A DNA stretch of 64,000 bases from Pyropia yezoensis (Eukaryota > Rhodophyta > Bangiophyceae > Bangiales > Bangiaceae), in contig CM020619.1 in the NCBI GenBank assembly GCA_009829735.1, forward strand, positions 32,374,685 through 32,438,684, written 5' to 3'. A model generated the notes under the pieces. That model was not told the origin of the DNA, did no database searches, and saw only the letters and a program-made list of their open reading frames with translations. A program made the translations under genes and the position numbers. Positions 13,945 through 48,634 of the stretch are shown here, piece by piece (position 1 is the first letter of the stretch; each line of letters begins with the position of its first letter).

Positions 13945-13956
13945 ACAAGATCAGAG

Positions 13957-23449: not shown

Positions 23450-23812
23450 TGTAGCAATATGGTTGTCCGTATTGTGACCCTAATATTAGGGGGGCTACTT
23501 CTAATCCTTAACTTTCAATTTGAGAGTCCGTACTGGTCACGGTATCTATAAGTTACGTATGACCAGAGGGACTTGCATCTTGGGGTGGAGGGTAGTTAGT
23601 AGTGTCTCCGAGGGTTTATAACGAGGGGGCCGGTGGCGAATCCACCGCCGGCCAAGGTAGAACAACAAACCCCTCCCATTTGGGCTCCCATCTTGGTCCC
23701 GTGGCTTGCGCTCCAAGGACAGCAACCTTGGCCTCCCGGTGACGTTGGTGCCGATCCCCCTTGGTGAGTGTTCCCTGAGAGTGGACGCGCGACGGATTCC
23801 TATTGTGCTACA
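23450..23812 (+). mobile_element. 5' LTR of element A
   Basis: The LTR carries the likely promoter of the sense transcript: a TTTATAA box at 23615-23621 followed by a GC-rich hairpin at 23628-23653 that is kept in all family A LTRs. The ends are TGTAGC and GCTACA. Confidence 0.95.
23615..23653 (+). promoter_or_regulatory. TATA-like box and conserved hairpin in LTR A
   Basis: TTTATAA at 23615-23621 is followed 6 nt later by GGCCGGTGG-CGAATCCA-CCGCCGGCC, which forms a strong hairpin. In the solo LTR (19314) and the LTR at 51355 the stem is perfect (GGCCGGCGG). The position fits the start of the transcript leader. Confidence 0.55.
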
Positions 23813-25783: not shown

Positions 25784-26251
25784 TGTGGCAGTATTGACCC
25801 CCAGGTAGGGGGCAACACGTGCCATGCAAGGGGCGGCAGGCCACTAGCCTGATCCGTTCCTCCCCCTGCATTTGGGTCCATATTCCCTAAGTTCGGGATA
25901 GTTAGCTTAGTAGTAAATCCAACTTGGATTTAAGGGTTTTCTGCATTTATCGTCTTGAATTTTCGTGTGGCCCGGTGGGCAGGTGCTGGGGTGGGAGATT
26001 CTGAGTGGCGAGATTCTGAGTGGACCCTGGGGGGATAAGGGGAGGGACAGCGGGGCTTGGCCCTGCGTCCCCGTCCCGACCAAGAAACTGTTGGACCACA
26101 CACCATCTTCTTGTTTGTCCGTGGGGGGATTGCCCCACAACAGGGATAGAGTGTGTGCGACTTGCACTTCTTCCGGTTCCCCCGACACGGGAGGCAGCCC
26201 TCGCACACCGCCCCAACTTGGGTACTGTGTGTGCGAGTGGTTTTTGCCACA
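25784..26251 (+). mobile_element. 5' LTR of element B
   Basis: 468 bp, with TGTGGCA...TGCCACA termini. It contains a 17-nt palindrome at 25915-25931 and a 15-bp tandem repeat GAGATTCTGAGTGG(C) at 25995-26023. No clear TATA box was seen. Confidence 0.95.
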
Positions 26252-26253
26252 TT

Positions 26254-26272
26254 TGGTGGAGCAGCAGGGGAC
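26254..26272 (+). other. Primer binding site of element B
   Basis: TGGTGGAGCAGCAGGGGAC lies 2 nt after the LTR and differs by one base from that of element A, so both families probably use the same tRNA primer. Confidence 0.75.
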
Positions 26273-26370
26273 AGAGGTAAACTTTACCTCCGGGTGCACC
26301 CGGGTGTAGGGGGCCCTCTGTCTCAGAGGAACGGTGGACTTGGACCGTGTCATACGGATCGTTAGCCAAC

Positions 26371-28317
26371 ATGGCTAGCTCGGACCCCCCGTCGTCCGGG
26401 GAGTACGCGGGTGACGCACGTACTTCAGTGCCTTTGAATACTGGTGAGACACAGGTGGGTTTACCTGGGGTCGCAGAGGGACTAGAGGTCCCTCAAGCCA
26501 GCAGGACTGGAAGTACGGGCGGGCAACAGGCCACCCCGACTCAGTCGGGAGTTCACTCGGGTGACACTTCTGACGTGGGTGGGCCGAAGTCTGGCCACCG
26601 CGTGGTATACTCAACGGGAACGTCCCAAGGGGTGAGGACTGTCCCCGCGAGTTCCACTCGGGTTGGAGCCAACTTTGGCATGGAGCCATCGCCAACTAGG
26701 CTTTCGGAGGACGGCGGACCTCCGTTGGTCGGCGATGGGCTCGCGCCCATGCCCCCGGTTGAGACCCCTGAGGAACGTGGTTACCCCTCAGGTGGACTCC
26801 CGGAGGCGGACCGAGACTCAACTGGAGTCGTCAATCCACTCCTCGCGGAAACTGTCCGTCGGGAGGCGACCAATGTGTTGCGGCAGACTTTGCCGGACCT
26901 GGTGGTCACGATGACGAATACTATTCTGAATCAGATTGTAGCGAGTTTGCCAGATGGCCTGAATGTCCAGACCGGATTGGGGCTTTCGAGCCCACAGGCG
27001 CAGGGGGAATCCCTCCCCACGCCTATCTCGGGTCGCCCCGAACTGGGGGCGACACCTGTGACTCCCAACGAGGGAGCCACACCATACGCGGTGGGGCGTA
27101 CGCCCTTCACGGGGGAGTTCCCCTCGGAAACGCCGGCGGCTACACCAAGCTCGCCGTACCAGACTACAGGCACTGAGGGTGGACTTACCCCAGTGCCACA
27201 GCGGCTGTTCCCTCAACGTGAGGTGCCGCCCAAGATTCAGGTAGCCAACCCGGTCTACCAGCGGATCTTTGACTGTGAGACCTACGCCCTCCACAACAAG
27301 TCGGTGGCGTATGGTCCTGACCAGGCCCGAGCCATGGGCCGTGCCAAGAAGAATGCACTTCATTCTTTTGGGCACAGAGCGGAGTGGGATGGAACTCCCC
27401 CCCTCCGTGTCTTTGAGTTCCTACGTCGTTTCACAAAAGCCTGTGACGACAATGCCATAAGTGAAGGCATGGCTTTTTACATGCTACAGGAGTTTACGAA
27501 GGGAGACCTGCGGACAGAACTTATGTCCGTCATGCCCAGCTCCTCAAGTGGAGGCGCTGGGGAGGTGACGTCCTATTTGGAGCTCGTCAACTGGTTGTTG
27601 AGGGCCATGGTTGATGAAGCGGCGTTGGCTTCTCAAGTCGAGGAGTTTACGCAAGCCCATCAGGAAGAGGCGGAGGACGAGTTGTCCTTTGCGGAGCGAG
27701 TCCGTAAGCTCAACAATCTTTGTGGGTTTCTTCATCCACAAGCTGTGGTGAAGAGTCGGTTTGTGGAAGGACTCCACTGGTCAGTCCGGATGGAGACCCG
27801 GGAGCATAACACTGCCCGGGCGACCCTGGCCGAGTTGGCTAGGTTCGCCTACCGCAGAGGCGAGGCCTACCGCAAGTTGCGGGAAGAACAACGCCAGGAG
27901 CGTCAGGCCGAGTTGGCCAAGGAACGGGAAGAGGCGCGCCAGGCCAGAGAGTTGCGAGAGGCACGCCGAATCCGCAAGGAGAGGGTGGTAGCTGCCGTGG
28001 GAACTTCCCAAGGTACCTCGTCGTCTTCCCCAGTTGGGAAGACCCCTCCGGGAACTGATCATCGGTGTTGGAACTGCAACTCCGATGGTCACTGGGCATA
28101 TGATTGCCCCAAGTTGAGTAAACGCATCCAACAGCTTGTTAGGAATGCGAGTAAGAAGTCGGCTACGAACGAAGTGCGTTCACGCCGCGAGGGTGGGTCT
28201 CGACCAGTGGTGGCGGTCGCCACACCCTCGACGGAGGGGGCGGACACGTCGTCCTCGGACTCGTCGTCGTCCCCTTCGCCCTCAGATTCGGACGCCAAGT
28301 CGGCGGGAAACGAATGA
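26371..28317 (+). CDS. Gag of element B
   Basis: The ATG at 26371 has a strong context (AACATGG) and opens a 648-codon frame. The first 290 residues are Thr/Pro/Gly-rich. Next comes a helical capsid-like region, a Lys/Glu/Arg-rich coiled-coil-like stretch (REEQRQERQAELAKEREEA), and near residue 566 a CCHC zinc knuckle, CWNCNSDGHWAYDC, that binds RNA. A Ser/Asp-rich acidic tail follows. The stop TGA overlaps the pol start as ATGA, so pol may be translated by termination and reinitiation. The copy in element F is similar throughout. Confidence 0.92.
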   Translation: MASSDPPSSGEYAGDARTSVPLNTGETQVGLPGVAEGLEVPQASRTGSTGGQQATPTQSGVHSGDTSDVGGPKSGHRVVYSTGTSQGVRTVPASSTRVGANFGMEPSPTRLSEDGGPPLVGDGLAPMPPVETPEERGYPSGGLPEADRDSTGVVNPLLAETVRREATNVLRQTLPDLVVTMTNTILNQIVASLPDGLNVQTGLGLSSPQAQGESLPTPISGRPELGATPVTPNEGATPYAVGRTPFTGEFPSETPAATPSSPYQTTGTEGGLTPVPQRLFPQREVPPKIQVANPVYQRIFDCETYALHNKSVAYGPDQARAMGRAKKNALHSFGHRAEWDGTPPLRVFEFLRRFTKACDDNAISEGMAFYMLQEFTKGDLRTELMSVMPSSSSGGAGEVTSYLELVNWLLRAMVDEAALASQVEEFTQAHQEEAEDELSFAERVRKLNNLCGFLHPQAVVKSRFVEGLHWSVRMETREHNTARATLAELARFAYRRGEAYRKLREEQRQERQAELAKEREEARQARELREARRIRKERVVAAVGTSQGTSSSSPVGKTPPGTDHRCWNCNSDGHWAYDCPKLSKRIQQLVRNASKKSATNEVRSRREGGSRPVVAVATPSTEGADTSSSDSSSSPSPSDSDAKSAGNE

Positions 28318-31300
28318 CCGTTGGAGCTGGTCGTCCGAAGCTCACAACGGCAGCCTCGGCCAAGTGGGCCAAGAGGACGAACCAACCGTGTCGGATACTG
28401 CGGCGACCTAAGGGAGTCCGCCCACCTCGGGTGGGACTTCCCAAGAACGTAAACCCACGTCGGGTCATCGCGGTGCTGACGGGTGAGAACTTCCAGGTGG
28501 CTGGACGGGTGCAACTTGCCCCCGGCCGCGCCTGTTGTGCCCGTATCGTACTTGATACCGGGTCAGGAGCCTCCTTGATACGCAAGTCGCTATTACCAAA
28601 GGGGATGAGGCTCCAACGCTGGAAGTCTAAAGCTGACCATCTGATCGATATCAATGGTGGGGTACTTCCCATCGTTGGTGCCGTGACCCTACCAACTCGG
28701 TTGGGGACCCATGAGGTCGACGTGACCTATGGTGTAGTTGAGAATATATCGGTACCCCTGCTTCTGGGTACCCCTTATGTCGTAACACAAGTGCCTTTGA
28801 TTTGTGGCCCTGAGTACTGGGTCAAGTTGATGAATGGGGAGACTATCCCCATCCTTGGTAAGGGAAAGTCTGTGGCTCCTGTGACAGTTTCACAGTCGAA
28901 GCCTGTTTGTTCTGTGAGGGAAGGGTTTACTGCTACTCTGCGTTTAGCCCGTAAAGTCACGTTGCCCCCCAACTCGGTGGCGCACGTGGATGTTGTAACT
29001 GATTATGCGGGGAACGGGTTGGTGCACCCTAACCCCCGTCTTGCTCGCAAGCACCAAGTGCATGTTGCCCTTGGCACGATGGACTCCAAAGCCGGAGTCC
29101 CGTGGAGGATCCAGGTGATGAACCTGAGCTCGTCGCCCAAGTTCTTCAAGTCGGGGGCCAAGTTCGGCTATATCGACCAACACGAGGGACCGGTAGTAGC
29201 GGTCACCCTCAGCGCGGGCGCAAGTAGCGACCCGAAGTCCGGAAAGGAGAAGCATCAAGCCAAGTCGGCCGCCTCTCCTCGGCCCCAGGTAAACATGGAG
29301 GGTGTTCCACCCAGGTTGAGGGTTCAAGTTGAACGCCTCTTGGACCAATATCACAAGTTGTGGGATGGTCAATTGGGACTCATGAGAGCTACCCAACACC
29401 GGATCGAGTTGAAACCCGGTGCGCCCCCTATACGCCAACAACCGTATAGGGGGGGACCCCGTTCAAGGGCCCTCGTTAAGGAGCAAGTTGCTCGCATGGA
29501 GGCCCTCGATGTGATCGAGGCCAGCAACGCCGAGTGGGCGAGTCCGGTGGTGATCGTCCCCAAAGTTGATGGGACCCCCCGGTTCTGTATCGACTACCGT
29601 AAGCTCAACGAGAGCACGGTGAAGGATAGTTATCCCCTACCTCGGATGGATGACTGCCTGGACTCTCTGGGGGAGGCAAACGTGTTCTCTACCCTGGACT
29701 GTAACGCGGGGTACTGGCAAATTCCCATTGCCCCGGAGGACAGGCATAAAACTACCTTTACCTGTCACTGTGGTACCTACCAGTGCAAGCGTCTACCGTT
29801 TGGCCTGTGTAACGCGCCGGCAACTTTCCAGCGCGCTATGGACATGATTCTGGCCGGAGTACGGTGGCAGATCTGTCTCGTGTACCTAGACGATATCATT
29901 GTGTTCTCCCGAAGTCCGGAGGAACACATTGGCCATCTTGGCCAGGTGTTCAAGCTACTTGCTGACGCCGGAGTGTCACTGAAGGCGAGTAAGTGCCACC
30001 TCTTCACTCAAGAGGTGGAGTACTTGGGACATGTTGTCCGTCCGGGGCGTCTCAGTGTCAACGAGAAAAACTTGAGGGCCATCCGCAAGGCTCAGTACCC
30101 CCGGACCCAGACCCAGATGAGGAGCTTCCTCGGGATGTGTAACGTGTACCGACGTTTCACTAAGGGCTTCGCCAAAGTGGCGAAGCCGTTGAATGAGTTA
30201 GTGAGCTCAACGCTACCGAAGAACCTGCCTCCCCCAAGTCGGGTGGAGCAGGAATCCTTTGAGACTCTTCGGGACCTTCTGCTGAAGCCCCCTATCCTGG
30301 CTATTCCCAGGTTGGGAGGCCACTACATCCTGGATGTGGACGCTAGCTACGACCAACTTGGTTGTGTGTTGCTTCAGCAACAGCCGGACAAGGAGTACTT
30401 GCCGGTGGGATACTTCAGCAAGGGGCTAAACTCGGCTGAGAAGAACTACGGAGTCACCGAGTTGGAAGGACTCGCAGTGGTATGGGCGGTGACGTCACTT
30501 CGTCACTACCTAGAGGGTGAGAAGTTCCTCATCCGCTGTGACCACCGCGCGTTGCAGTTCATCTTCAAGACGGACTGTACGAACACTCGTCTCAACCGGT
30601 GGAGGGTGCGACTTGCACCCTTCAACTTTGATATTGAGTACCGACCTGGCAGGCAACATGCCCTTGCCGACGGCCTCTCTCGGGTACCTACCGAGGGACT
30701 GGACACCACCCCAGTCGATGAGGACATCCCCATCGTGGGGGTAGTCACGCGCTCGGGTCAGGCGTTGAATCCCGAGGCGCCAGGGAACAAGAAGTACTTG
30801 CCCCTGTCCCTGGACGAAGTAGTGAAGGCCCAGGCCGAGGATCCCTTCTGCAAGTCGCAGAGGGATACCCTGGATACAGTGGCGGAGACGCGGTTCTTCC
30901 TGGGAGACGATGGCCTCCTCATGAGGAGGGGGGTATTCCAGGGGACCGAACAACTTGTCGTCCCCGCATCCCTCAAGGACAGTATCCTTGAGAGGGAGCA
31001 TAACGCTCCCACGGGTGGACACCTGGGGTCTAGTAAACTATACCAGACCCTGAGGACCAGGTACTACTGGCCGTCCATGGTGGTGGACATCTACAGTTGG
31101 GTGGCTGCCTGCACAAGTTGTGCACAGAACCGTCTGATGGAACGGCGGCCTAGTACGGCTATGCTATTGTTCCCGGCCAAGGAGCCCTTCGCCGCGTTGG
31201 CGATGGACATCCTTGGGCCACTGCCAGTGACCGAGGAGGGCAACCAGTACCTCCTGGTCATCTGTGACCGCTTCACGAAACTTACGCGAGCGATCCCACT

Positions 31301-32297
31301 GGCAGAGATCACGGCCATGTCGGTCGTGTCAGCCTTCCTAGATCACTGGGTTGCCGCGTATGGCATTCCGGATAGTACACTATCGGACAATGGACCGCAA
31401 TTTGCGTCTGTACTGTTTCAAGGAGTGCTGGATATGTTGGGGGTTAAGGCAAACTATGCCACCCCCTACCACCCACAAACTAATGGGCAGGTGGAGCGCT
31501 TCAACAAAACTATTGTTAGGCAGCTGCGCCATTATGTGAGTGAGCACGTGAAGACGTGGGACCAATACATTTCTATTCTGACCACTGCCTACAATTCGCA
31601 GGTTCACTCATCTACCGGGGAAGTACCCCTCGCTTTTGTGACCCCCCGTCGCGTGCGGTCTATTGCCGTGCGGCGGCCGCTCCCAACTAGGGAGGATGGT
31701 GGCAGTGCGCCCACTCCTACTGAGAGTAAGGCGGAGTTCGCTGCTAGGCTTGAAAACCTCATCCCTAAAGTCAGGGCTGAGATGGACAAAGCACAAAAGC
31801 GCTACAAGCGTACCTTTGACAAAAAGGTGCGCAACGCCAAGCATGTCCCCGAGCAGGGTGACTGGGTATTGGTCCACTCACACACCCCAACTGGGGGTAA
31901 GTTGGTGTTCCAGACGAAGGGGCCGTACCAGGTCCTTCGTACTGATGGGCGGCGCTTCACCATCGAAAGTGACGATGGGGTCCGCACAGTGAACGGACAG
32001 GACGTGGTCAAAGTTGCACCACCGCCTGCAGGCGACCCAGCTTGGGCGCGTGCTTTGAAAACGTGGCGCCTGCCCTCGCTGCCTGCAGCCAAACAGGGCC
32101 CGCAGGAGTACGTGTTCGACAAGTTCATCGACCACGGCTGGGATGAGGATACTGACCGCCTCATGTTGAGGGTGCGTTGGTTTGGCTACAAAGCCAAGGA
32201 TGATACGTGGGAGTATGTGGAGGACCTTCCTGCTGAGAAGGTCCGGGCGTACTGTGCCCGGAACGAGATAGACCCTAACAGCCCTCCCTCAACGTGA
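28314..32297 (+). CDS. Pol polyprotein of element B
   Basis: The intact frame of 1327 codons starts at the ATG inside the gag stop. Domains in order: aspartic protease with LDTGSGAS at 80-87; reverse transcriptase about 420-600 with [23 protein letters not shown] and YLDD at 524-527; RNase H from about 670 (ILDVDASYDQLG); integrase with a His2-Cys2 finger near 893-940 and catalytic Asp, Asp, Glu around 965, 1025 and 1060 (AMDILG, LSDNGPQF, GQVERFNK); and a C-terminal chromodomain near 1266-1312 (FDKFIDHGW...RVRWFGYK..DTWEYVEDL). The chromodomain places it among chromoviruses, where this module guides integration to certain chromatin. All catalytic residues seem present, so this copy may be functional. 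Confidence 0.96.
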   Translation: MTVGAGRPKLTTAASAKWAKRTNQPCRILRRPKGVRPPRVGLPKNVNPRRVIAVLTGENFQVAGRVQLAPGRACCARIVLDTGSGASLIRKSLLPKGMRLQRWKSKADHLIDINGGVLPIVGAVTLPTRLGTHEVDVTYGVVENISVPLLLGTPYVVTQVPLICGPEYWVKLMNGETIPILGKGKSVAPVTVSQSKPVCSVREGFTATLRLARKVTLPPNSVAHVDVVTDYAGNGLVHPNPRLARKHQVHVALGTMDSKAGVPWRIQVMNLSSSPKFFKSGAKFGYIDQHEGPVVAVTLSAGASSDPKSGKEKHQAKSAASPRPQVNMEGVPPRLRVQVERLLDQYHKLWDGQLGLMRATQHRIELKPGAPPIRQQPYRGGPRSRALVKEQVARMEALDVIEASNAEWASPVVIVPKVDGTPRFCIDYRKLNESTVKDSYPLPRMDDCLDSLGEANVFSTLDCNAGYWQIPIAPEDRHKTTFTCHCGTYQCKRLPFGLCNAPATFQRAMDMILAGVRWQICLVYLDDIIVFSRSPEEHIGHLGQVFKLLADAGVSLKASKCHLFTQEVEYLGHVVRPGRLSVNEKNLRAIRKAQYPRTQTQMRSFLGMCNVYRRFTKGFAKVAKPLNELVSSTLPKNLPPPSRVEQESFETLRDLLLKPPILAIPRLGGHYILDVDASYDQLGCVLLQQQPDKEYLPVGYFSKGLNSAEKNYGVTELEGLAVVWAVTSLRHYLEGEKFLIRCDHRALQFIFKTDCTNTRLNRWRVRLAPFNFDIEYRPGRQHALADGLSRVPTEGLDTTPVDEDIPIVGVVTRSGQALNPEAPGNKKYLPLSLDEVVKAQAEDPFCKSQRDTLDTVAETRFFLGDDGLLMRRGVFQGTEQLVVPASLKDSILEREHNAPTGGHLGSSKLYQTLRTRYYWPSMVVDIYSWVAACTSCAQNRLMERRPSTAMLLFPAKEPFAALAMDILGPLPVTEEGNQYLLVICDRFTKLTRAIPLAEITAMSVVSAFLDHWVAAYGIPDSTLSDNGPQFASVLFQGVLDMLGVKANYATPYHPQTNGQVERFNKTIVRQLRHYVSEHVKTWDQYISILTTAYNSQVHSSTGEVPLAFVTPRRVRSIAVRRPLPTREDGGSAPTPTESKAEFAARLENLIPKVRAEMDKAQKRYKRTFDKKVRNAKHVPEQGDWVLVHSHTPTGGKLVFQTKGPYQVLRTDGRRFTIESDDGVRTVNGQDVVKVAPPPAGDPAWARALKTWRLPSLPAAKQGPQEYVFDKFIDHGWDEDTDRLMLRVRWFGYKAKDDTWEYVEDLPAEKVRAYCARNEIDPNSPPST

Positions 32298-32408
32298 GGG
32301 AAGGCCGAGCAACAGTGCCAAGAGAGTGCTTCAAGTCGAAGTGGTACGCAGAGTGGCTTTAAACTACAGCCCTAACCCTCACACTCTCACAACAAAGGCA
32401 GCTGCCAA
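32298..32408. other. Spacer between the convergent pol and antisense genes of B
   Basis: Only 111 bp separate the pol stop from the end of the antisense ORF on the opposite strand. It must hold any 3' processing signals for both transcripts, or the two transcripts overlap. No AATAAA-like signal was recognised. Confidence 0.6.
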
Positions 32409-34352
32409 CTAGGCACGCATGCTAGACTCTCCCACTCCACGGCCCTCGCCCTCACGTGGAGGCGAGCGGCGAGACCCACGCCGATAACGGTCTCCACTCG
32501 TTGGAAGGGGCGGCGGCTCCAAGTCGGAACCGTCGCGCCCCTCACGGTCGCGCAAGTGGCGCCGACCGTGGCTACTCTTCTGCCTGGTCTTGCGCGCAAG
32601 TTTGCGACGCAGACGCTGGACAGACTCCGTCTCCGATGGGGTAGAGGACTCCGAGACGGAGTAAGACAACTCGTCTTCCGACACGGAGGGAGAGCGCCGC
32701 GAGTGACGGCGACGACGGCGAGGAGGCGAGTATGCCCGGCTCGCACGACGCTTGCCACGCCCAAGTGGGGTTGGCTGGGGCATAATAGCCCCAATGCGAG
32801 CCAACTCGGCCGTCATAAACTCCGCCACCGACTCGCAACTCGCGGTCGCCACTGCAGTACGAACGCGCTCCTCAAGTTGAGGAGTCTCGGAACTTTGGAG
32901 GGTTGCGGTCGACGCGGCCAACCAGGAAATGGTGCGCACCAACGTGGTGATCATCATCTCTGAGGTTAGAGGCGTGGGCGGTAACACCAACTTGGGGTAT
33001 ACCGTCAGGAGGGTGGCCCCCAAGTTGGGAGACACCGGTGTGGATGACTCCACGGCCACGCTGATCGGGATGTTCCCGTGAGGCTGGAAAGGAACAGGAG
33101 GAAGCGGAGGGGCACGCCGAGGTGGCGGTACCCGGGTGTAACTGCGACCCCGACTTGGGGCCCCCGCAGTAGGTTGAGTCATATGGTCATCATATGAGGG
33201 CACAGCCATAACTATGGGCTTGTCCGGGGGTGGCGCAGTGTGACGATCCACCCCCGGGGCATACGGGTAGTCCCCGATGCCCAACCCCTCTCGTAGGACC
33301 ACACGGCCGTCGTGAAGTTCACGAGCGACCCACACGAACTGGCGAAGTGCGCCATCGTCCTTGGGCCCCCGAGTGGGGCGGCGCAACTTGTGCTCAATGC
33401 TCTCCCACTCGATAAACTTGTGGAGGCGGAGCATCTCCTCAAGTAGAGTGAGTTGTCCTGACGAGCACCCCTCAGCAACTAGCTGAGGGGTGAGCTGTTC
33501 CAAACCCTGGATGAGCCGGAGGGGGAGATGCCAGAGCATCCCCCGCCGCTGAACACATGACACCCAGGTCGACATGACCTCGAGGAGCCACTGGGTGGCC
33601 AACATGGCCCACACCAGATGATCAGGGCCAGCCGTCAACATGACGGAGCCGAAGTGGTCAAGCAACCGTGGCAACAATGCCGGGAACCCGTAGGGGACCT
33701 CAACTTGAGGCCACCACTCGGGCTTCTTCGGGTAGTATTGCTCCTTACTGGCAGCAGACTGCTGAGGAAACTCAAGTTGAGCCGAGGTCACCAAGTAGGG
33801 ACCTCGCCGGAAGTCCTTCTCCATCCGCACATCAAAGTGATGAGTGTGCGGATCGGCCTCGTGAAGGTACGGGGGGCGAGTTGCCACCGCGTCCCAAGTG
33901 AAGGTCGGCAAGTCGCCGGGACCCGGGATAGTTCCCCCGCGGTCCACCATGGCCTTGGCCCGCTGCACGTCCTCGACCTCCTCGTCGTCCAGGAAGGCAA
34001 ACTGGTCCGTCCTGAAGCCGGCAGGGAACCCGACCCTACGGGGATACTTCTCCCGTAGGCGGTCCCATACCCGACCCATCGCTGCGCCGAGTCGGCCACA
34101 GCGAAGAACAGTCAACCCCTCCTCATACAGAGGCCAAGCGGGGTAAAACCACCGCCCCAAGGCCTCACGCGGGACAACTTGTCCCGCCTCCGGGGGAGAT
34201 CCTGCCGTCAACCCAAAGCCGGGTGACGCGGGAGTCCCACCCCCCGGAGCGATCGCGGAGCCCCCGCCGGAAGTCCCGGCAGGCGCTGCACCGTAGGAGG
34301 TGTCCTCCATACGCTCATCGAGAGAGTCCGTCTCCACTCCCGGAGTCGCCAT
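32409..34352 (-). CDS. Antisense accessory gene of element B
   Basis: This frame lies on the strand opposite to gag and pol, between pol and the 3' LTR. The ATG at 34352 has an excellent context (GAGCCATGG) and gives 647 codons; the frame is open 57 codons further up but has no ATG there. Residues 1-60 are Gly/Pro-rich; 60-330 read as a folded, mostly helical domain rich in Trp and Leu (WFYPAWPLYEEG, HFGSVMLTAGPDHL, GMLWHLPLRL); 430-530 has Leu-rich helices; and residues 530-647 form an Arg/Ser-rich tail (RRRRRRHSRRSPS...) similar in composition to splicing-factor RS domains. There is no signal peptide or transmembrane span, so it is not an envelope protein. The same ORF recurs at 41497-39554 and, frameshifted, at 53058-55002. 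The function is unknown. Confidence 0.8.
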   Translation of the reverse strand: MATPGVETDSLDERMEDTSYGAAPAGTSGGGSAIAPGGGTPASPGFGLTAGSPPEAGQVVPREALGRWFYPAWPLYEEGLTVLRCGRLGAAMGRVWDRLREKYPRRVGFPAGFRTDQFAFLDDEEVEDVQRAKAMVDRGGTIPGPGDLPTFTWDAVATRPPYLHEADPHTHHFDVRMEKDFRRGPYLVTSAQLEFPQQSAASKEQYYPKKPEWWPQVEVPYGFPALLPRLLDHFGSVMLTAGPDHLVWAMLATQWLLEVMSTWVSCVQRRGMLWHLPLRLIQGLEQLTPQLVAEGCSSGQLTLLEEMLRLHKFIEWESIEHKLRRPTRGPKDDGALRQFVWVARELHDGRVVLREGLGIGDYPYAPGVDRHTAPPPDKPIVMAVPSYDDHMTQPTAGAPSRGRSYTRVPPPRRAPPLPPVPFQPHGNIPISVAVESSTPVSPNLGATLLTVYPKLVLPPTPLTSEMMITTLVRTISWLAASTATLQSSETPQLEERVRTAVATASCESVAEFMTAELARIGAIMPQPTPLGRGKRRASRAYSPPRRRRRHSRRSPSVSEDELSYSVSESSTPSETESVQRLRRKLARKTRQKSSHGRRHLRDREGRDGSDLEPPPLPTSGDRYRRGSRRSPPREGEGRGVGESSMRA

Positions 34353-34680
34353 GGCTCTCCCCAAGTTGGGGAGAGACGTCCTGGCTATCGCGGCACGAGA
34401 CCCGCCTCGAGTTGAGGGGGACTCGGATCGTGGGTAAACGGGTGGCCTCCCCAGCGTGGGGTGGCCCCGTGTAAGGTGAAGGAGAAGTGGTGGTGGTGGT
34501 GAGGTGTGAACCGAGGAGAGCAAGCTGCCAAGTGGGCAAGCTTGAGGAGAGGGGCGGCCAACGTGACCGCCTCCACATCCGCGTTACGTACTCAAGGGGG
34601 GACAGCAAGTCGCGTCCCCCCCAACGCCGAGACGTGCGTTTACGCACCCCCTCACAGGGCCGACCGGGTCGGTCGGAACT

Positions 34681-34693
34681 GAGGAGAGGGGAG
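34681..34693 (+). other. Polypurine tract of element B (first unit)
   Basis: GAGGAGAGGGGAG lies directly before the LTR start TGTGGCA, the usual place for the plus-strand primer. Confidence 0.8.
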
Positions 34694-35116
34694 TGTGGCA
34701 GTATTGACCCCCAGGTAGGGGGCAACACGTGCCATGCAAGGGGCGGCAGGCCACTAGCCTGATCCGTTCCTCCCCCTGCATTTGGGTCCATATTCCCTAA
34801 GTTCGGGATAGTTAGCTTAGTAGTAAATCCAACTTGGATTTGAGGGTTTTCTGCATTTATCGTCTTGAATTTTCGTGTGGCCCGGTGGGCAGGTGCTGGG
34901 GTGGGAGATTCTGAGTGGCGAGATTCTGAGTGGACCCTGGGGGGATAAGGGGAGGGACAGCGGGGCTTGGCCCTGCGTCCCCGTCCCGACCAAGAAACTG
35001 TTGGACCACACACCATCTTCTTGTTTGTCCGTGGGGGGATTGCCCCACAACAGGGATAGAGTGTGTGGCGACTTGCACTTCTTCCGGTTCCCCCGACACG
35101 GGAGGCAGCCCTCGCA
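34694..35116 (+). mobile_element. Middle LTR of the B tandem, truncated by the gap
   Basis: It matches the 468-bp LTR until the N run, with one substitution near 34842 and one extra G near 35068, close to the gap edge. About 46 bp of the LTR lie in the gap. Confidence 0.9.
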
Positions 35117-35616
35117 NNNNNNNNNNNNNNNNNNNNNNNNNNNNNNNNNNNNNNNNNNNNNNNNNNNNNNNNNNNNNNNNNNNNNNNNNNNNNNNNNNNN
35201 NNNNNNNNNNNNNNNNNNNNNNNNNNNNNNNNNNNNNNNNNNNNNNNNNNNNNNNNNNNNNNNNNNNNNNNNNNNNNNNNNNNNNNNNNNNNNNNNNNNN
35301 NNNNNNNNNNNNNNNNNNNNNNNNNNNNNNNNNNNNNNNNNNNNNNNNNNNNNNNNNNNNNNNNNNNNNNNNNNNNNNNNNNNNNNNNNNNNNNNNNNNN
35401 NNNNNNNNNNNNNNNNNNNNNNNNNNNNNNNNNNNNNNNNNNNNNNNNNNNNNNNNNNNNNNNNNNNNNNNNNNNNNNNNNNNNNNNNNNNNNNNNNNNN
35501 NNNNNNNNNNNNNNNNNNNNNNNNNNNNNNNNNNNNNNNNNNNNNNNNNNNNNNNNNNNNNNNNNNNNNNNNNNNNNNNNNNNNNNNNNNNNNNNNNNNN
35601 NNNNNNNNNNNNNNNN
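35117..35616. other. Assembly gap of exactly 500 N
   Basis: The run is exactly 500 N, a size often used for gaps of unknown length. By alignment with the first B unit, 2264 bp are missing here (equivalent to 26206-28469): the LTR end, primer binding site, all of gag and the start of pol. Confidence 0.95.
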
Positions 35617-38600
35617 GCGGTGCTGACGGGTGAGAACTTCCAGGTGGCTGGACGGGTGCAACTTGCCCCGGCCGCGCCTGTTGTGCCCGTATCGTACTTG
35701 ATACCGGGTCAGGAGCCTCCTTGATACGCAAGTCGCTATTACCAAAGGGGATGAGGCTCCAACGCTGGAAGTCTAAAGCTGACCATCTGATCGATATCAA
35801 TGGTGGGGTACTTCCCATCGTTGGTGCCGTGACCCTACAACTCGGTTGGGGACCCATGAGGTCGACGTGACCTATGGTGTAGTTGAGAATATATCGGTAC
35901 CCCTGCTTCTGGGTACCCCTTATGTCGTAACACAAGTGCCTTTGATTTGTGGCCCTGAGTACTGGGTCAAGTTGATGAATGGGGAGACTATCCCCATCCT
36001 TGGTAAGGGAAAGTCTGTGGCTCCTGTGACAGTTTCACAGTCGAAGCCTGTTTGTTCTGTGAGGGAAGGGTTTACTGCTACTCTGCGTTTAGCCCGTAAA
36101 GTCATGTTGCCCCCCAACTCGGTGGCGCACGTGGATGTTGTAACTGATTATGCGGGGAACGGGTTGGTGCACCCTAACCCCGTCTTGCTCGCAAGCACCA
36201 AGTGCATGTTGCCCTTGGCACGATGGACTCCAAAGCCGGAGTCCCGTGGAGGATCCAGGTGATGAACCTGAGCTCGTCGCCCAAGTTCTTCAAGTCGGGG
36301 GCCAAGTTCGGCTATATCGACCAACACGAGGGACCGGTAGTAGCGGTCACCCTCAGCGCGGGCGCAAGTAGCGACCCGAAGTCCGGAAAGGAGAAGCATC
36401 AAGCCAAGTCGGCCGCCTCTCCTCGGCCCCAGGTAAACATGGAGGGTGTTCCACCCAGGTTGAGGGTTCAAGTTGAACGCCTCTTGGACCAATATCACAA
36501 GTTGTGGGATGGTCAATTGGGACTCATGAGAGCTACCCAACACCGGATCGAGTTGAAACCCGGTGCGCCCCCTATACGCCAACAACCGTATAGGGGGGGG
36601 ACCCCGTTCAAGGGCCCTCGTTAAGGAGCAAGTTGCTCGCATGGAGGCCCTCGATGTGATCGAGGCCAAGCACGCCGAGTGGGCGAGTCCGGTGGTGATC
36701 GTCCCCAAAGTTGATGGACCCCCCGGTTCTGTATCGACTACCGTAAGCTCAACGAGAGCACGGTGAAGGATAGTTATCCCCTACCTCGGATGGATGACTG
36801 CCTGGACTCTCTGGGGGAGGCCAAACGTGTTCTCTACCCTGGACTGTAACGCGGGGTACTGGCAAATTCCCATTGCCCCGGAGGACAGGCATAAAACTAC
36901 CTTTACCTGTCACTGTGGTACCTACCAGTGCAAGCGTCTACCGTTTGGCCTGTGTAACGCGCCGGCAACTTTCCAGCGCGCTATGGACATGATTCTGGCC
37001 GGAGTACGGTGGCAGATCTGTCTCGTGTACCTAGACGATATCATTGTGTTCTCCCGAAGTCCGGAGGAACACATTGGCCATCTTGGCCAGGTGTTCAAGC
37101 TACTTGCTGACGCCGGAGTGTCACTGAAGGCGAGTAAGTGCCACCTCTTCACTCAAGAGGTGGAGTACTTGGGACATGTTGTCCGTCCGGGGCGTCTCAG
37201 TGTCAACGAGAAAAACTTGAGGGCCATCCGCAAGGCTCAGTACCCCCGGACCCAGACCCAGATGAGGAGCTTCCTCGGGATGTGTAACGTGTACCGACGT
37301 TTCACTAAGGGCTTCGCCAAAGTGGCGAAGCCGTTGAATGAGTTAGTGAGCTCAACGCTACCGAAGAACCTGCCTCCCCCAAGTCGGGTGGAGCAGGAAT
37401 CCTTTGAGACTCTTCGGGACCTTCTGCTGAAGCCCCCTATCCTGGCTATTCCCAGGTTGGGAGGCCACTACATCCTGGATGTGGACGCTAGCTACGACCA
37501 ACTTGGTTGTGTGTTGCTTCAGCAACAGCCGGACAAGGAGTACTTGCCGGTGGGATACTTCAGCAAGGGGCTAAACTCGGCTGAGAAGAACTACGGAGTC
37601 ACCGAGTTGGAAGGACTCGCAGTGGTATGGGCGGTGACGTCACTTCGTCACTACCTAGAGGGTGAGAAGTTCCTCATCCGCTGTGACCACCGCGCGTTGC
37701 AGTTCATCTTCAAGACGGACTGTACGAACACTCGTCTCAACCGGTGGAGGGTGCGACTTGCACCCTTCAACTTTGATATTGAGTACCGACCTGGCAGGCA
37801 ACATGCCCTTGCCGACGGCCTCTCTCGGGTACCTACCGAGGGACTGGACACCACCCCAGTCGATGAGGACATCCCCATCGTGGGGGTAGTCACGCGCTCG
37901 GGTCAGGCGTTGAATCCCGAGGCGCCAGGGAACAAGAAGTACTTGCCCCTGTCCCTGGACGAAGTAGTGAAGGCCCAGGCCGAGGATCCCTTCTGCAAGT
38001 CGCAGAGGGATACCCTGGATACAGTGGCGGAGACGCGGTTCTTCCTGGGAGACGATGGCCTCCTCATGAGGAGGGGGGTATTCCAGGGGACCGAACAACT
38101 TGTCGTCCCCGCATCCCTCAAGGACAGTATCCTTGAGAGGGAGCATAACGCTCCCACGGGTGGACACCTGGGGTCTAGTAAACTATACCAGACCCTGAGG
38201 ACCAGGTACTACTGGCCGTCCATGGTGGTGGACATCTACAGTTGGGTGGCTGCCTGCACAAGTTGTGCACAGAACCGTCTGATGGAACGGCGGCCTAGTA
38301 CGGCTATGCTATTGTTCCCGGCCAAGGAGCCCTTCGCCGCGTTGGCGATGGACATCCTTGGGCCACTGCCAGTGACCGAGGAGGGCAACCAGTACCTCCT
38401 GGTCATCTGTGACCGCTTCACGAAACTTACGCGAGCGATCCCACTGGCAGAGATCACGGCCATGTCGGTCGTGTCAGCCTTCCTAGATCACTGGGTTGCC
38501 GCGTATGGCATTCCGGATAGTACACTATCGGACAATGGACCGCAATTTGCGTCTGTACTGTTTCAAGGAGTGCTGGATATGTTGGGGGTTAAGGCAAACT

Positions 38601-39442
38601 ATGCCACCCCCTACCACCCACAAACTAATGGGCAGGTGGAGCGCTTCAACAAAACTATTGTTAGGCAGCTGCGCCATTATGTGAGTGAGCACGTGAAGAC
38701 GTGGGACCAATACATTTCTATTCTGACCACTGCCTACAATTCGCAGGTTCACTCATCTACCGGGGAAGTACCCCTCGCTTTTGTGACCCCCCGTCGCGTG
38801 CGGTCTATTGCCGTGCGGCGGCCGCTCCCAACTAGGGAGGATGGTGGCAGTGCGCCCACTCCTACTGAGAGTAAGGCGGAGTTCGCTGCTAGGCTTGAAA
38901 ACCTCATCCCTAAAGTCAGGGCTGAGATGGACAAAGCACAAAAGCGCTACAAGCGTACCTTTGACAAAAAGGTGCGCAACGCCAAGCATGTCCCCGAGCA
39001 GGGTGACTGGGTATTGGTCCACTCACACACCCCAACTGGGGGTAAGTTGGTGTTCCAGACGAAGGGGCCGTACCAGGTCCTTCGTACTGATGGGCGGCGC
39101 TTCACCATCGAAAGTGACGATGGGGTCCGCACAGTGAACGGACAGGACGTGGTCAAAGTTGCACCACCGCCTGCAGGCGACCCAGCTTGGGCGCGTGCTT
39201 TGAAAACGTGGCGCCTGCCCTCGCTGCCTGCAGCCAAACAGGGCCCGCAGGAGTACGTGTTCGACAAGTTCATCGACCACGGCTGGGATGAGGATACTGA
39301 CCGCCTCATGTTGAGGGTGCGTTGGTTTGGCTACAAAGCCAAGGATGATACGTGGGAGTATGTGGAGGACCTTCCTGCTGAGAAGGTCCGGGCGTACTGT
39401 GCCCGGAACGAGATAGACCCTAACAGCCCTCCCTCAACGTGA
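35617..39442 (+). pseudogene. Pol of the second B unit, 5' end in the gap
   Basis: From about 36830 to 39442 the sequence is essentially identical to the first unit and holds reverse transcriptase (YLDD), RNase H, integrase and chromodomain in one open frame. Between 35617 and 36830 at least six one-base indels, mostly in homopolymers (near 35668, 35838, 36180, 36590, 36716 and 36822), break the frame. They are confined to the gap side, so they look like unpolished contig-end errors and not genuine decay. If that is right, the gene may be intact. Confidence 0.8.
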
Positions 39443-39553
39443 GGGAAGGCCGAGCAACAGTGCCAAGAGAGTGCTTCAAGTCGAAGTGGTACGCAGAGTG
39501 GCTTTAAACTACAGCCCTAACCCTCACACTCTCACAACAAAGGCAGCTGCCAA

Positions 39554-41497
39554 CTAGGCACGCATGCTAGACTCTCCCACTCCACGGCCCTCGCCCTCAC
39601 GTGGAGGCGAGCGGCGAGACCCACGCCGATAACGGTCTCCACTCGTTGGAAGGGGCGGCGGCTCCAAGTCGGAACCGTCGCGCCCCTCACGGTCGCGCAA
39701 GTGGCGCCGACCGTGGCTACTCTTCTGCCTGGTCTTGCGCGCAAGTTTGCGACGCAGACGCTGGACAGACTCCGTCTCCGATGGGGTAGAGGACTCCGAG
39801 ACGGAGTAAGACAACTCGTCTTCCGACACGGAGGGAGAGCGCCGCGAGTGACGGCGACGACGGCGAGGAGGCGAGTATGCCCGGCTCGCACGACGCTTGC
39901 CACGCCCAAGTGGGGTTGGCTGGGGCATAATAGCCCCAATGCGAGCCAACTCGGCCGTCATAAACTCCGCCACCGACTCGCAACTCGCGGTCGCCACTGC
40001 AGTACGAACGCGCTCCTCAAGTTGAGGAGTCTCGGAACTTTGGAGGGTTGCGGTCGACGCGGCCAACCAGGAAATGGTGCGCACCAACGTGGTGATCATC
40101 ATCTCTGAGGTTAGAGGCGTGGGCGGTAACACCAACTTGGGGTATACCGTCAGGAGGGTGGCCCCCAAGTTGGGAGACACCGGTGTGGATGACTCCACGG
40201 CCACGCTGATCGGGATGTTCCCGTGAGGCTGGAAAGGAACAGGAGGAAGCGGAGGGGCACGCCGAGGTGGCGGTACCCGGGTGTAACTGCGACCCCGACT
40301 TGGGGCCCCCGCAGTAGGTTGAGTCATATGGTCATCATATGAGGGCACGGCCATAACTATGGGCTTGTCCGGGGGTGGCGCAGTGTGACGATCCACCCCC
40401 GGGGCATACGGGTAGTCCCCGATGCCCAACCCCTCTCGTAGGACCACACGGCCGTCGTGAAGTTCACGAGCGACCCACACGAACTGGCGAAGTGCGCCAT
40501 CGTCCTTGGGCCCCCGAGTGGGGCGGCGCAACTTGTGCTCAATGCTCTCCCACTCGATAAACTTGTGGAGGCGGAGCATCTCCTCAAGTAGAGTGAGTTG
40601 TCCTGACGAGCACCCCTCAGCAACTAGCTGAGGGGTGAGCTGTTCCAAACCCTGGATGAGCCGGAGGGGGAGATGCCAGAGCATCCCCCGCCGCTGAACA
40701 CATGACACCCAGGTCGACATGACCTCGAGGAGCCACTGGGTGGCCAACATGGCCCACACCAGATGATCAGGGCCAGCCGTCAACATGACGGAGCCGAAGT
40801 GGTCAAGCAACCGTGGCAACAATGCCGGGAACCCGTAGGGGACCTCAACTTGAGGCCACCACTCGGGCTTCTTCGGGTAGTATTGCTCCTTACTGGCAGC
40901 AGACTGCTGAGGAAACTCAAGTTGAGCCGAGGTCACCAAGTAGGGACCTCGCCGGAAGTCCTTCTCCATCCGCACATCAAAGTGATGAGTGTGCGGATCG
41001 GCCTCGTGAAGGTACGGGGGGCGAGTTGCCACCGCGTCCCAAGTGAAGGTCGGCAAGTCGCCGGGACCCGGGATAGTTCCCCCGCGGTCCACCATGGCCT
41101 TGGCCCGCTGCACGTCCTCGACCTCCTCGTCGTCCAGGAAGGCAAACTGGTCCGTCCTGAAGCCGGCAGGGAACCCGACCCTACGGGGATACTTCTCCCG
41201 TAGGCGGCCCCATACCCGACCCATCGCTGCGCCGAGTCGGCCACAGCGAAGAACAGTCAACCCCTCCTCATACAGAGGCCAAGCGGGGTAAAACCACCGC
41301 CCCAAGGCCTCACGCGGGACAACTTGTCCCGCCTCCGGGGGAGATCCTGCCGTCAACCCAAAGCCGGGTGACGCGGGAGTCCCACCCCCCGGAGCGATCG
41401 CGGAGCCCCCGCCGGAAGTCCCGGCAGGCGCTGCACCGTAGGAGGTGTCCTCCATACGCTCATCGAGAGAGTCCGTCTCCACTCCCGGAGTCGCCAT
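39554..41497 (-). CDS. Antisense accessory gene of the second B unit
   Basis: This is a second copy of the 647-codon antisense gene, with the ATG at 41497 and the same strong start context. It differs from the first copy by very few substitutions, including an Asp/Gly change in the RVW(D/G)RLREK segment and a silent G/A near 40349. The differences show that the two copies are not simply one sequence placed twice, unless they represent two haplotypes. The protein is described at 32409-34352. Confidence 0.8.
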   Translation of the reverse strand: MATPGVETDSLDERMEDTSYGAAPAGTSGGGSAIAPGGGTPASPGFGLTAGSPPEAGQVVPREALGRWFYPAWPLYEEGLTVLRCGRLGAAMGRVWGRLREKYPRRVGFPAGFRTDQFAFLDDEEVEDVQRAKAMVDRGGTIPGPGDLPTFTWDAVATRPPYLHEADPHTHHFDVRMEKDFRRGPYLVTSAQLEFPQQSAASKEQYYPKKPEWWPQVEVPYGFPALLPRLLDHFGSVMLTAGPDHLVWAMLATQWLLEVMSTWVSCVQRRGMLWHLPLRLIQGLEQLTPQLVAEGCSSGQLTLLEEMLRLHKFIEWESIEHKLRRPTRGPKDDGALRQFVWVARELHDGRVVLREGLGIGDYPYAPGVDRHTAPPPDKPIVMAVPSYDDHMTQPTAGAPSRGRSYTRVPPPRRAPPLPPVPFQPHGNIPISVAVESSTPVSPNLGATLLTVYPKLVLPPTPLTSEMMITTLVRTISWLAASTATLQSSETPQLEERVRTAVATASCESVAEFMTAELARIGAIMPQPTPLGRGKRRASRAYSPPRRRRRHSRRSPSVSEDELSYSVSESSTPSETESVQRLRRKLARKTRQKSSHGRRHLRDREGRDGSDLEPPPLPTSGDRYRRGSRRSPPREGEGRGVGESSMRA

Positions 41498-41825
41498 GGC
41501 TCTCCCCAAGTTGGGGAGAGACGTCCTGGCTATCGCGGCACGAGACCCGCCTCGAGTTGAGGGGGACTCGGATCGTGGGTAAACGGGTGGCCTCCCCAGC
41601 GTGGGGTGGCCCCGTGTAAGGTGAAGGAGAAGTGGTGGTGGTGGTGAGGTGTGAACCGAGGAGAGCAAGCTGCCAAGTGGGCAAGCTTGAGGAGAGGGGC
41701 GGCCAACGTGACCGCCTCCACATCCGCGTTACGTACTCAAGGGGGGACAGCAAGTCGCGTCCCCCCCAACGCCGAGACGTGCGTTTACGCACCCCCTCAC
41801 AGGGCCGACCGGGTCGGTCGGAACT

Positions 41826-41838
41826 GAGGAGAGGGGAG
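41826..41838 (+). other. Polypurine tract of the second B unit
   Basis: GAGGAGAGGGGAG directly precedes the 3' LTR, as in the first unit. Confidence 0.8.
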
Positions 41839-42306
41839 TGTGGCAGTATTGACCCCCAGGTAGGGGGCAACACGTGCCATGCAAGGGGCGGCAGGCCACT
41901 AGCCTGATCCGTTCCTCCCCCTGCATTTGGGTCCATATTCCCTAAGTTCGGGATAGTTAGCTTAGTAGTAAATCCAACTTGGATTTAAGGGTTTTCTGCA
42001 TTTATCGTCTTGAATTTTCGTGTGGCCCGGTGGGCAGGTGCTGGGGTGGGAGATTCTGAGTGGCGAGATTCTGAGTGGACCCTGGGGGGATAAGGGGAGG
42101 GACAGCGGGGCTTGGCCCTGCGTCCCCGTCCCGACCAAGAAACTGTTGGACCACACACCATCTTCTTGTTTGTCCGTGGGGGGATTGCCCCACAACAGGG
42201 ATAGAGTGTGTGCGACTTGCACTTCTTCCGGTTCCCCCGACACGGGAGGCAGCCCTCGCACACCGCCCCAACTTGGGTACTGTGTGTGCGAGTGGTTTTT
42301 GCCACA
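41839..42306 (+). mobile_element. 3' LTR of element B
   Basis: 468 bp, identical by eye to the 5' LTR at 25784, and followed by the target duplication ACCCT (42307-42311). Confidence 0.95.
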
Positions 42307-42757: not shown

Positions 42758-45700
42758 ATGACCGGGGGGCGCTGGGGTCACCCAAGCAAGCCACCCCGGA
42801 GTACCGCGGGGAAAGCCCCACGGAGAGCGCGGTTGAGCCGACGCCGCATCAACCCCCGGGTACACCTTCCGGCCCCGACGACACGGCGTCAGGGGATTGA
42901 TGACCAACCTCCGAGGTTGGGAGGAGAGGACGGGAAGCCCCGTCACGTTGAACCTGACAAGGGCCCCGTTCAGGATGCCCGAGCTACACCGGATATCGGT
43001 GTAGGACATGTGTTGTTTACCTTGGAGAACTTCAAGGTATCAGCCACACTGGGGGTTGACCCCCAGTCGACACGATCGTACTACCCTGTACTGGATACAG
43101 GGGCTGGACCCAACCTTATCCGGAAGGATACCCTCCCGGACAAGTGGCTTCCACGAGTCAGAGTGACTCGGGGACCCACCATCAAGGACGCGAATGGTCG
43201 ACTCATTCGTACGACCGCAGCGATGTCGCTGCAGGTTACCATCGGGGATCTCACCACGGAAGTTGACTTCCTGGTATGTGAAACGCTATCGGTGCCCTGC
43301 ATACTGGGGTGCACCTTCATCAACGTTCACGTTGATGCAATCCGGCCAGGCCGGAGGACCGTCGAGCTTCAAGAAGCCGACGGGACGAAGCGAGGACATA
43401 CGGCTATCGTCAGGGACCTGACGCTACAAGGAAGCCACGTTAACGTGGCTGAGGTGTACGCAAGCGTCGAGCCGAAGACACTTCGGTTGGCCAAGCGAAC
43501 TCGCTTTGAGCCGTTGTCAGAGACAGTCCTCCCGGTTAACTGTGACCTCGCAGGCATCTGCAGAGTCAAGTCCAACTTGCGGACGTACAAGCGCCATGGG
43601 TTGACCATGGCCAACGGTCTCATAGACCTCCCATCAGAAGGGTCGTCCCTCCTAGTGATGGCGAACTACCGCCGTAAGGCAGTCACCATCCCGAAGGGAA
43701 CTATCCTCGGGATTGCCGAACTCTACGAAGGAGATATCCTTACCCCTGATAAGGAAGGTCAAGTGGAACCACTTGAAGTACTGGCGGTCGCCGAGACCAC
43801 CGAGCGACAGCAACCCGATGACGGGAAGCCTAACCCATCGGCGGCTCCGGCGGACCTGCCGCCAAAGGACCAAGAGGCCTTGAAGGCACTGGCCGAGGCT
43901 GACCTCGACCACCTTCCCCCTTCGGTAGCCGAAGGGGTACGACGGATGCTAAGAAAGCATGACGTTATGTGGACAGGCGGGGCCTTGGGGACCATTGGGG
44001 CAACCCAACATCGTATAGACCTGGTACCAGGCGCACGACCCGCCCGCTCACAACCGCACCGAGCGGGACCTATGCAACGAGAGATCGTTGATGGAGAAGT
44101 GAAGAGGATGAGTGAAGCTAAGGTGATCCGACCTTCGATGTCGGAATGGGGTGCCCCAGTCGTTATTGTGCCGAAGAAGGATCAAACCCCTCGGTTTTGC
44201 ATCGATTATCGACGCCTCAACTTGGTTACTAAGAAGGACTCATACCCTTTACCAAGGATGGATGAATGCATCGACTCCCTGGGGGAGGCTACGGTGTTTA
44301 CCACCATCGACTGTAACGCCGGATACTGGCAGATCCCGGTGGCGGACGAGGATATCCCCAAGACGGCATTCGTCTGTCACAGTGGAGTGTACGAGTTCCT
44401 AAGGATGCCCTTCGGATTGTCCAACGCCCCCGCTACATTCCAGCGGGCTATCGACATCATACTGTCTGGGGTGAAGTGGCGTAACTGCCTAGTGTACCTC
44501 GATGACGTCATCGTCTTCTCGCGTAACATGGATGACCATGTACAACATGTTGACGAGGTACTCACCCTCTTGAGGAACGCCGGGGTAACCCTGCGTCTGA
44601 AGAAGTGCGCCTTCTTCCAACAGACGGTCGAGTATCTGGGCCACCAGATAACCCCTGGTAAACTAGGGGTACTCGAAGCCAATACCCGGGCACTCCGGGA
44701 TGCCCGGTTCCCTAACACCCAGACGCAGCTCAAGAGCTTCCTGGGAATGTGCAATGTATACCGACGGTTCGTCAAGGACTTCGCTCGGATAGCTAAACCG
44801 TTAACGGTTCTTACGAGCAGTACCTTACCCAAGGTACTCCAACCCCCTTCGCCTAGCGAAGAGGAGGCATTCGAGTCGCTGAAGCGAGCCCTACTAGCCC
44901 CACCCGTCCTTGCGTTACCGCATAGACGGGGTACCTTCGTCATCGATGTCGATGCATGTGATACACAAGTGGGATGCACCCTGTTACAGGGAGAGACGTT
45001 GATCGGTACCGATAACGTTATCCCGGACCTACGTCCGGTAGGGTACTTCAGCCGGACACTCAACCCGGCTGAGCGGAACTATAGTGCCACCGAGCGTGAA
45101 TGCCTCGGAGTCATATGGGCAGTGCAACTGCTCCGTCCATACCTGGAGGGCTCCAGGTTCATCGTGAGGTCCGACCACGAACCCCTACGATGGCTCCTCA
45201 ACATTGGTGACAAGGATTCCGATAGCCATGGGAGGCTAGCCCGATGGAGGCTGAAGATGGCCGAGCACGACTACCGCACGGTGTATAAGGCTGGGTCAAC
45301 CCACCACCTCGGAGACGCGTTGTCTCGACTCGACACCCCGAGCGGGGATACCCGCCCGGTGGACGAGGACATCCCGGTAGTACCGGTGTGCATGGTGGGT
45401 AATGCTACCCAGGGTATGGCTGACCATACCATGGCACACCTTGCGTGCCCATTGACCCTCGCGGACTTCCGCGAGGCACAGGCCAACGACGATGACTGTA
45501 GACGTCATCGTGCTAACCTCCTGGCCGGTACGGCCGGCATCTTCTCCGAGAACGAAGACGGACTCATATACCGGCGGGCACCCGCCGATGGACGACATCA
45601 AGTCGTGGTTCCCGTGTCCTTACGGCAAGCCGTCATGGAACGAGAACATGAGAACCCTACAGCCGGACACCCGGGGGGTTCACGTATGTTCGCAGCAATG

Positions 45701-46924: not shown

Positions 46925-47404
46925 CAACCCAACCGACACCGACTTCGGCTGTTGGGGGGTGAGGCTTATACCTACTAAGTAGGGTGTGACATGGTTACGG
47001 CAGACTTAGGTTTCTAAGTCAAATCAGACTTAGGTTTCTAAGTCGAACCAAGCTTAGGTAACTAAGTAGAGCTAAGCTTAGGTAGCTAAGTAAAAACCTG
47101 AACCTTAATAAGGTAACTTAAAGGTAAAGGCTAACTCCGATAATATCGAAGTAACTAGGAGGCTTACACGGGAGGATGACCTCCCAAAGCCAAGACACAA
47201 AGTGAGGGAGGATAACCTCCCCAAGCATGAACCAACCGGAAGAAGTTGGACGGGAGGCAAGGCACCACTGAGCCAGAAGGGGTACTCCCCAGGGCAGCAA
47301 CCAGAGGCAAGCAATGCCCCCAGCGGGGGATGAGTTTATACTCACTACTACCCGGCTACCATAAGGGTTGCCGGGGCCCTCTCCCGCACAAACAATAGCA
47401 CTCC
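46925..47404. other. Spacer between convergent pol and antisense ORFs of A
   Basis: This 480-bp spacer holds four 24-bp palindrome repeats at 47003-47090 and no ORF of note. It is where the sense and antisense transcripts would meet. Confidence 0.6.
47003..47090. repeat. Four 24-bp repeats, each with a CTTAG-N4-CTAAG palindrome
   Basis: CTTAG begins at 47005, 47029, 47053 and 47077, an exact 24-bp period. Units 1 and 2 contain GACTTAGGTTTCTAAGTC; units 3 and 4 have CTTAGGTAACTAAG and CTTAGGTAGCTAAG. Each can form a short hairpin in either strand or bind a dimeric protein. The position between two converging genes suggests transcript 3' ends, which is inference. Confidence 0.9.
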
Positions 47405-48586: not shown

Positions 48587-48634
48587 GGGCGGGTAGGGAG
48601 CCGTCAACGACAGATACGGGGGTTCCCCCGGGTA

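Follow-up and report, generated by a model that had tools for sequence, protein, structure and literature searches.

Antisense open reading frames (ORFs) are known in a few plant LTR retrotransposons, as the original prediction had noted: Grande, with gene23, RIRE2, and Retand are the examples described in PMC11963269 and PMC7264820. In the accounts given there, 97% of Retand element clusters include a TRP28-coding antisense ORF, and the function of the Retand, Grande, and RIRE2 ORFs is presented as unsolved, with a regulatory role proposed; Grande gene23 is described as having its own antisense promoter and encoding a nuclear protein (PMC7264820). The LTR element Boty/BcGypsy1 of Botrytis cinerea carries an antisense gene, brtn (PMC7264820, PMC8365987). 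REM1 of Chlamydomonas reinhardtii, like the elements considered here an algal Ty3/gypsy element, has a reverse-frame coding region, reported to be a truncated integrase that keeps the GPY/F module and chromodomain (PMC2774666), and the HBZ-type genes of HTLV, mentioned in PMC11963269, are antisense regulatory genes near the 3′ LTR.

The DNA considered here (the window) is a 64,000 nt stretch of the red alga Pyropia yezoensis (GCA_009829735.1, contig CM020619.1, 32,374,685–32,438,684, forward strand), from an assembly described as 48% repeats, with LTR elements predominant, and as drawing on PacBio, BioNano, and Hi-C data and homozygous thalli (PMC7423979). Two of its elements, designated B and C, have the layout of the plant Tat/Retand aORF-3R, in which an antisense gene follows pol and precedes the 3′ LTR. 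There are differences from each of the described systems, however. Retand is described as a non-chromovirus (PMC11963269), while in B pol a chromodomain was matched, though weakly, and the host here is a red alga. No match to TRP28 (PF04195) was found at E ≤ 10 for P0001 and two pieces of the C protein, or at E ≤ 1 for seven C-type proteins (the HMMER filters drop most matches above 0.1); because this domain was not found, the Pyropia protein is not placed in the plant Retand/TRP28 group. The Botrytis element has a fungal host and is likened by layout only, as are the HBZ-type genes. Unlike the REM1 reverse frame, the Pyropia antisense proteins scanned have no match to integrase or chromodomain Pfam models. 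No account of a red-algal or Pyropia element with an antisense ORF, or of this protein, was found among open-licence titles and abstract openings, and a prior description is possible.

The antisense protein is under purifying selection. Families B and C both have it, as does a diverged lineage resembling C, termed F, and it has relatives in Pyropia vietnamensis. Antisense accessory genes have been reported in flowering plants and, for example, Botrytis, with their function described as unsolved (PMC7264820); the red-algal protein differs from these. The red-algal lineage, with many copies that are nearly identical, frames that are intact, and divergence at the level of families, would offer an independent system for examining residue-by-residue constraint and for tests of function.

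Element B and its antisense frame

Element B is a Ty3/gypsy LTR retrotransposon, with TG..CA LTR ends, a target-site duplication, and the pol order RT–RNase H–integrase. Its 5′ LTR (25784–26251, forward strand; TGTGGCA...TGCCACA) is followed by TGGTGGAGCAGCAGGGGA, which we take to be primer-binding-site-like. Gag (26371–28317, forward strand) includes a zinc knuckle, and pol (28314–32297, forward strand) has RT, RNase H, and integrase in Ty3/gypsy order. The chromodomain match (PF00385) in B pol, at E = 0.00096, is below the curated cut-off; C pol has none at E ≤ 0.01, the two being similar by eye. The 3′ LTR (34694–35116, forward strand) is cut by a gap of 500 N (35117–35616). A 5-bp repeat, ACCCT, is found on both sides of the entire block 25784–42306, and B is nested inside element C.

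The antisense gene (32409–34352, reverse strand) has 647 codons, from an ATG at 34352, in the context GAGAGCCATGGCG, to a stop at 32409. It lies opposite to gag and pol in strand and is placed between pol and the 3′ LTR; it converges on pol, with 111 bp between the pol end at 32297 and the antisense stop. Its coordinates, strand, length, and convergence on pol are as originally described. Among 2000 first-order Markov draws for the same strand, the longest ATG ORF had a median length of 123 codons and a maximum of 432. A single frame of the opposite strand was read across the same stretch, and it has many stops.

The original prediction counted three copies of this ORF in the window. The gap separates B (B1) from a near-identical repeat, B2: the DNA past the 500 N repeats 28470–35116. 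There are 14 differences, of which 10 fall within 1.2 kb of the gap and two in the antisense ORF, which is indeed present at 39554–41497 (reverse strand). The tandem could be an artefact of assembly, and B2 is not counted as independent support, leaving two independent copies. The second of these, in the inverted element E, is an independent and older copy, with its antisense ORF at 53058–55002 (forward strand) and an LTR at 52258–52721 (reverse strand) that is 95% identical to the B LTR. Its frame is broken, as predicted, by a single homopolymer frameshift, where a run of C is longer by one base; apart from this, 202 sites of the ORF differ from B (89.6% identity). The further claim, that in E the antisense ORF had been kept better than the LTR and pol, has to be reversed: with the LTR at 95% and the compared part of pol at ~94% (177 of 3012 sites differing), the ORF is the most diverged part at the DNA level.

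Copies in the genome and constraint on the frame

In the genome, all of the 40 DNA matches to the B ORF that were scored, out of 1518 first-look candidates, are full-length at ~100% identity. Twenty loci, best matches by choice and including the window's own, were fetched, and the frame is intact in all of them. Copies resembling E (89–94% identical to it) form an older set, 12 of which were fetched out of 39 listed besides E; three of these have an intact frame (L051, L059, and L062) and nine are broken. A frame lost from most copies in the genome had been named beforehand as evidence against a gene. Such loss is found among the old E-like copies, where it fits decay after insertion. In four of 13 diverged copies a base has been added in or close to the same run of C, at about base 830 of the ORF, with E and L053 sharing one alignment column and L060 and L061 another; this could be inherited, or reflect repeated slippage or sequencing error.

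The codon-level comparison proposed for B and E gives a dN/dS of 0.26 (method of Nei and Gojobori), with 108.5 synonymous and 93.5 replacement changes and 110 of the 202 differences at third positions, and so bears out the prediction of coding. For the three intact diverged copies the ratios to B are 0.13 (L059), 0.26 (L051), and 0.29 (L062). Each of these four pairs was compared with a null in which the same substitutions were dropped at random on matching bases, 1000 draws per pair: the null means were 0.85–0.88, and none of the 1000 draws was as low as the observed value in any pair. Ratios to B of three non-intact copies (L055, L056, and L058) are 0.23–0.26. Across these seven B pairs the constraint is specific to frame, with 0.13–0.29 for the antisense frame, 0.17–0.39 for its mirror frame, and at least 0.99 for the other four; the low ratio of the mirror frame is explained by the third positions it shares with the antisense frame. 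Known genes of these elements, treated by the same method, yield 0.14 for pol (B–D), 0.16 for the pol part (B–E), and 0.40 for gag (B–D). Among the E-like copies and E themselves the ratios are higher, at 0.67 for L051–L062, 0.63 for L051–E, and 0.62 for L062–E, with L059 giving 0.31–0.33 to the same three copies.

Two simple explanations for the frame can be set aside. A frame open by chance is ruled out by the dN/dS values, by the random-substitution null, and by the Markov ORF lengths. A mirror of a sense-strand gene is ruled out by the many stops in the opposite-strand frame read and by the shared third positions that account for the mirror ratio. The B ORF is almost certainly protein-coding.

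Families B and C, lineage F, and relatives in Pyropia vietnamensis

Element C has a 5′ LTR at 23450–23812 and a 3′ LTR at 50440–50802 (both forward strand), which are 100% identical to one another, have the ends TGTAGC...GCTACA, and are associated with a 5-bp repeat, CGTCT. Its pol (42758–46924, forward strand) is 42% identical to B pol at the amino acid level. The antisense gene (47405–49852, reverse strand; 815 codons) is in the same place as in B, between pol and the 3′ LTR and convergent with pol; the window copy has an in-frame stop at 48635–48637. Across 30 fetched C loci, the window's included, the frame is open in 20, interrupted by a stop in three, and without an in-frame start motif in seven, and within the second part of the ORF four of 102 scored matches have a stop. 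Strong AT skew (0.23–0.27) was noted at 46001–50000, over the end of family C pol and the antisense gene.

The B and C antisense genes are related as proteins. When all six frames of one were compared with all six of the other, antisense with antisense was the sole significant pair (E = 1e-8, against 0.53 for the runner-up), and for E with C this pair again stood out (E = 5.6e-5, against 0.65); at the DNA level, blastn found no significant match between the B and C regions (best E = 0.30). BLASTP aligned the two proteins with 41 of 165 residues identical (E = 5e-9), and a profile–profile comparison of the B and C groups aligned 204 columns (E = 1.4e-6, probability 90.5%). The likeness is confined to a core, with ~25–27% identity; B has nothing that matches the 499-codon piece from the N-terminal end of C.

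Lineage F (L063–L066) has ~73% DNA identity to C over the antisense gene. Three of its members (L063–L065) are open to a common natural stop, L066 has one earlier stop, and in L063 the ORF is convergent on pol. C–F comparisons over 618–619 codons give dS 0.71–0.75 and dN 0.19–0.20, a ratio of 0.25–0.28, falling to 0.18–0.22 in the core. By pol, however, with 94% amino acid identity to C over the last 338 codons, F would count as a C subfamily, and its antisense gene makes it look more independent of C than it is. Within F, ratios are 0.66 (L063–L064), 0.69 (L063–L065), 1.76 (L064–L065), and 0.34–0.39 (L066 with the others); the high values here, and those among E-like copies, are read as neutral decay after insertion. 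Within family C, replacement changes are likewise fewer than expected: singleton changes number 43 nonsynonymous and 60 synonymous (70.8 and 32.2 expected) and shared changes 17 and 17 (23.7 and 9.5 expected), with no difference between the two classes (p = 0.43); these counts are given little weight, because protein score was used to choose the loci and no more than 24 of the 30 are ungapped.

Two structural observations concern the same sequences. Between L021 and L063, dS is 0.23 at the pol end and ~0.72 in the adjoining antisense gene, suggesting either an exchange of parts between families (a mosaic produced by recombination) or very uneven constraint. Elsewhere in the genome (G000 C2:9880067–9892399), the C-type antisense region is repeated four times with a period of 3489 bases, apparently as a tandem array.

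Relatives outside P. yezoensis come from P. vietnamensis, where they are known as predicted proteins. Each protein search scored the 7993–7998 candidates sharing most words. With the C core there were six matches, including four “hypothetical proteins” of P. vietnamensis at 50–63% identity; a combined B and C profile found 16, of which 12 are from P. vietnamensis, the sole organism named. Used alone, the B protein matches proteins of P. vietnamensis as well, with a best E of 6e-7; a single-sequence search with it found one near-identical relative only. This suggests that some P. vietnamensis “hypothetical proteins” are element genes, perhaps encoded on the reverse strand. One of them, P0018 (MMPV_000838), combines an antisense N-terminal part (91% identical to P0005 over 172 residues) with a segment 56% identical to B gag, and is probably an annotated gene that spans nested elements.

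Protein features and possible functions

The B protein consists of a Pro/Gly/Ser-rich N-terminus, a core in common with C (aa 95–320), and an Arg-rich, RS-like C-terminus. The N-terminus can also be described as Pro/Gly/Ala-rich, with an acidic start in the C protein. Basic clusters in the C-terminal part are strong in B, number one in C, and by the same count are absent from F and from P. vietnamensis P0005; since B alone has a pronounced tail of this kind, the clusters do not establish a nuclear signal common to these proteins. The original prediction recognised no family for the protein, and the searches made agree: no Pfam model scored above its cut-off for the antisense proteins scanned, and no relative was found among PDB sequences. 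A candidate match to DUF6214 (two of seven members, best E 0.014) was dismissed as lying in the low-complexity C-terminal part, the C profile has no similarity to the 649-aa ORF at 4142–6091, and 87 pattern matches in IMG/VR contigs yielded no confirmed relative. AlphaFold models of the C and B cores have mean pLDDT values of 39.8 and 40.8. They suggest helices around a conserved FGSV...HLP...H...W region, but at a pLDDT of ~40 the models are unusable and no fold supports any function.

The gene is very probably an accessory gene of the elements' own. The reading we favour, and consider moderately probable, is that the B ORF is the third gene of a Ty3/gypsy group in P. yezoensis and encodes a nuclear accessory protein that regulates the element. 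The gene would be transcribed from an antisense promoter of its own, situated between the ORF and the 3′ LTR. The product would be a nuclear protein with a Pro-rich N-terminus, a perhaps helical core of ~200 residues, and basic C-terminal stretches in B and C, and it might act on the element's transcription, RNA fate, or silencing, as proposed for the plant Grande/Retand antisense genes. The nuclear regulatory role itself is somewhat short of probable. More tentatively still, the red-algal genes may represent an undescribed family, an antisense third gene in several bangialean Ty3/gypsy lineages that arose independently of those in flowering plants and fungi. If so, antisense regulation would be a solution reached repeatedly by LTR elements, here possibly against red-algal silencing.

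The chief rival is a structural or particle-associated factor, an RNA/DNA-binding chaperone or a second capsid-like protein, acting in the virus-like particle. The core is conserved and, at low confidence, predicted to be helical; the tail of B, RS-like and rich in Arg, could be a nucleic-acid-binding segment; and the B–E ratio lies between the values for pol (0.14–0.16) and gag (0.40). Against it, two profile comparisons showed no similarity to gag (E 0.57 for the C profile with B gag and 0.43 for a mixed profile with C gag), and an antisense gene would be an unusual way to make a particle protein. We regard this explanation as unlikely, though worth retaining beside a nuclear accessory protein.

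That the ORF is a captured host gene, carried by chance and no longer needed by the elements, is improbable. The lack of a Pfam match above cut-off would be compatible with such an origin, and a single-copy host relative may have escaped the genome searches, which scored the best candidates only. The gene is found in the same position in B and C, however, despite their pol proteins being so far apart, and is still constrained between C and F, which fits an old, retained element gene.

An antisense transcript rather than a protein could conceivably be what matters, pairing with gag-pol RNA and triggering or tuning silencing, with the frame incidental. The B genes do converge closely enough that their transcripts could overlap, and control by double-stranded RNA is discussed for plant antisense ORFs in PMC7264820. 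As a sole explanation this is very improbable in view of the dN/dS of 0.13–0.29, the frame-specific homology of B and C where blastn finds no DNA match, and the amino acid conservation in another species; an RNA role could exist beside that of the protein. Least probable of all is an envelope-like or membrane protein of the kind encoded by sense-strand env-like genes, which occupy the same place between pol and the 3′ LTR: the orientation is antisense, and the best 19-residue Kyte-Doolittle means in the four proteins examined (B, C, F, and P. vietnamensis) are 1.2–1.4, with none above 1.4 and the usual membrane threshold at ~1.6.

Apart from the elements, the window includes two ORFs, at 627–2270 and 7902–9023, with RNase HII and MYND-finger matches, which are likely host genes, and a tandem duplication of ~830 bases (13115–14784) whose copies are 99.4% identical.
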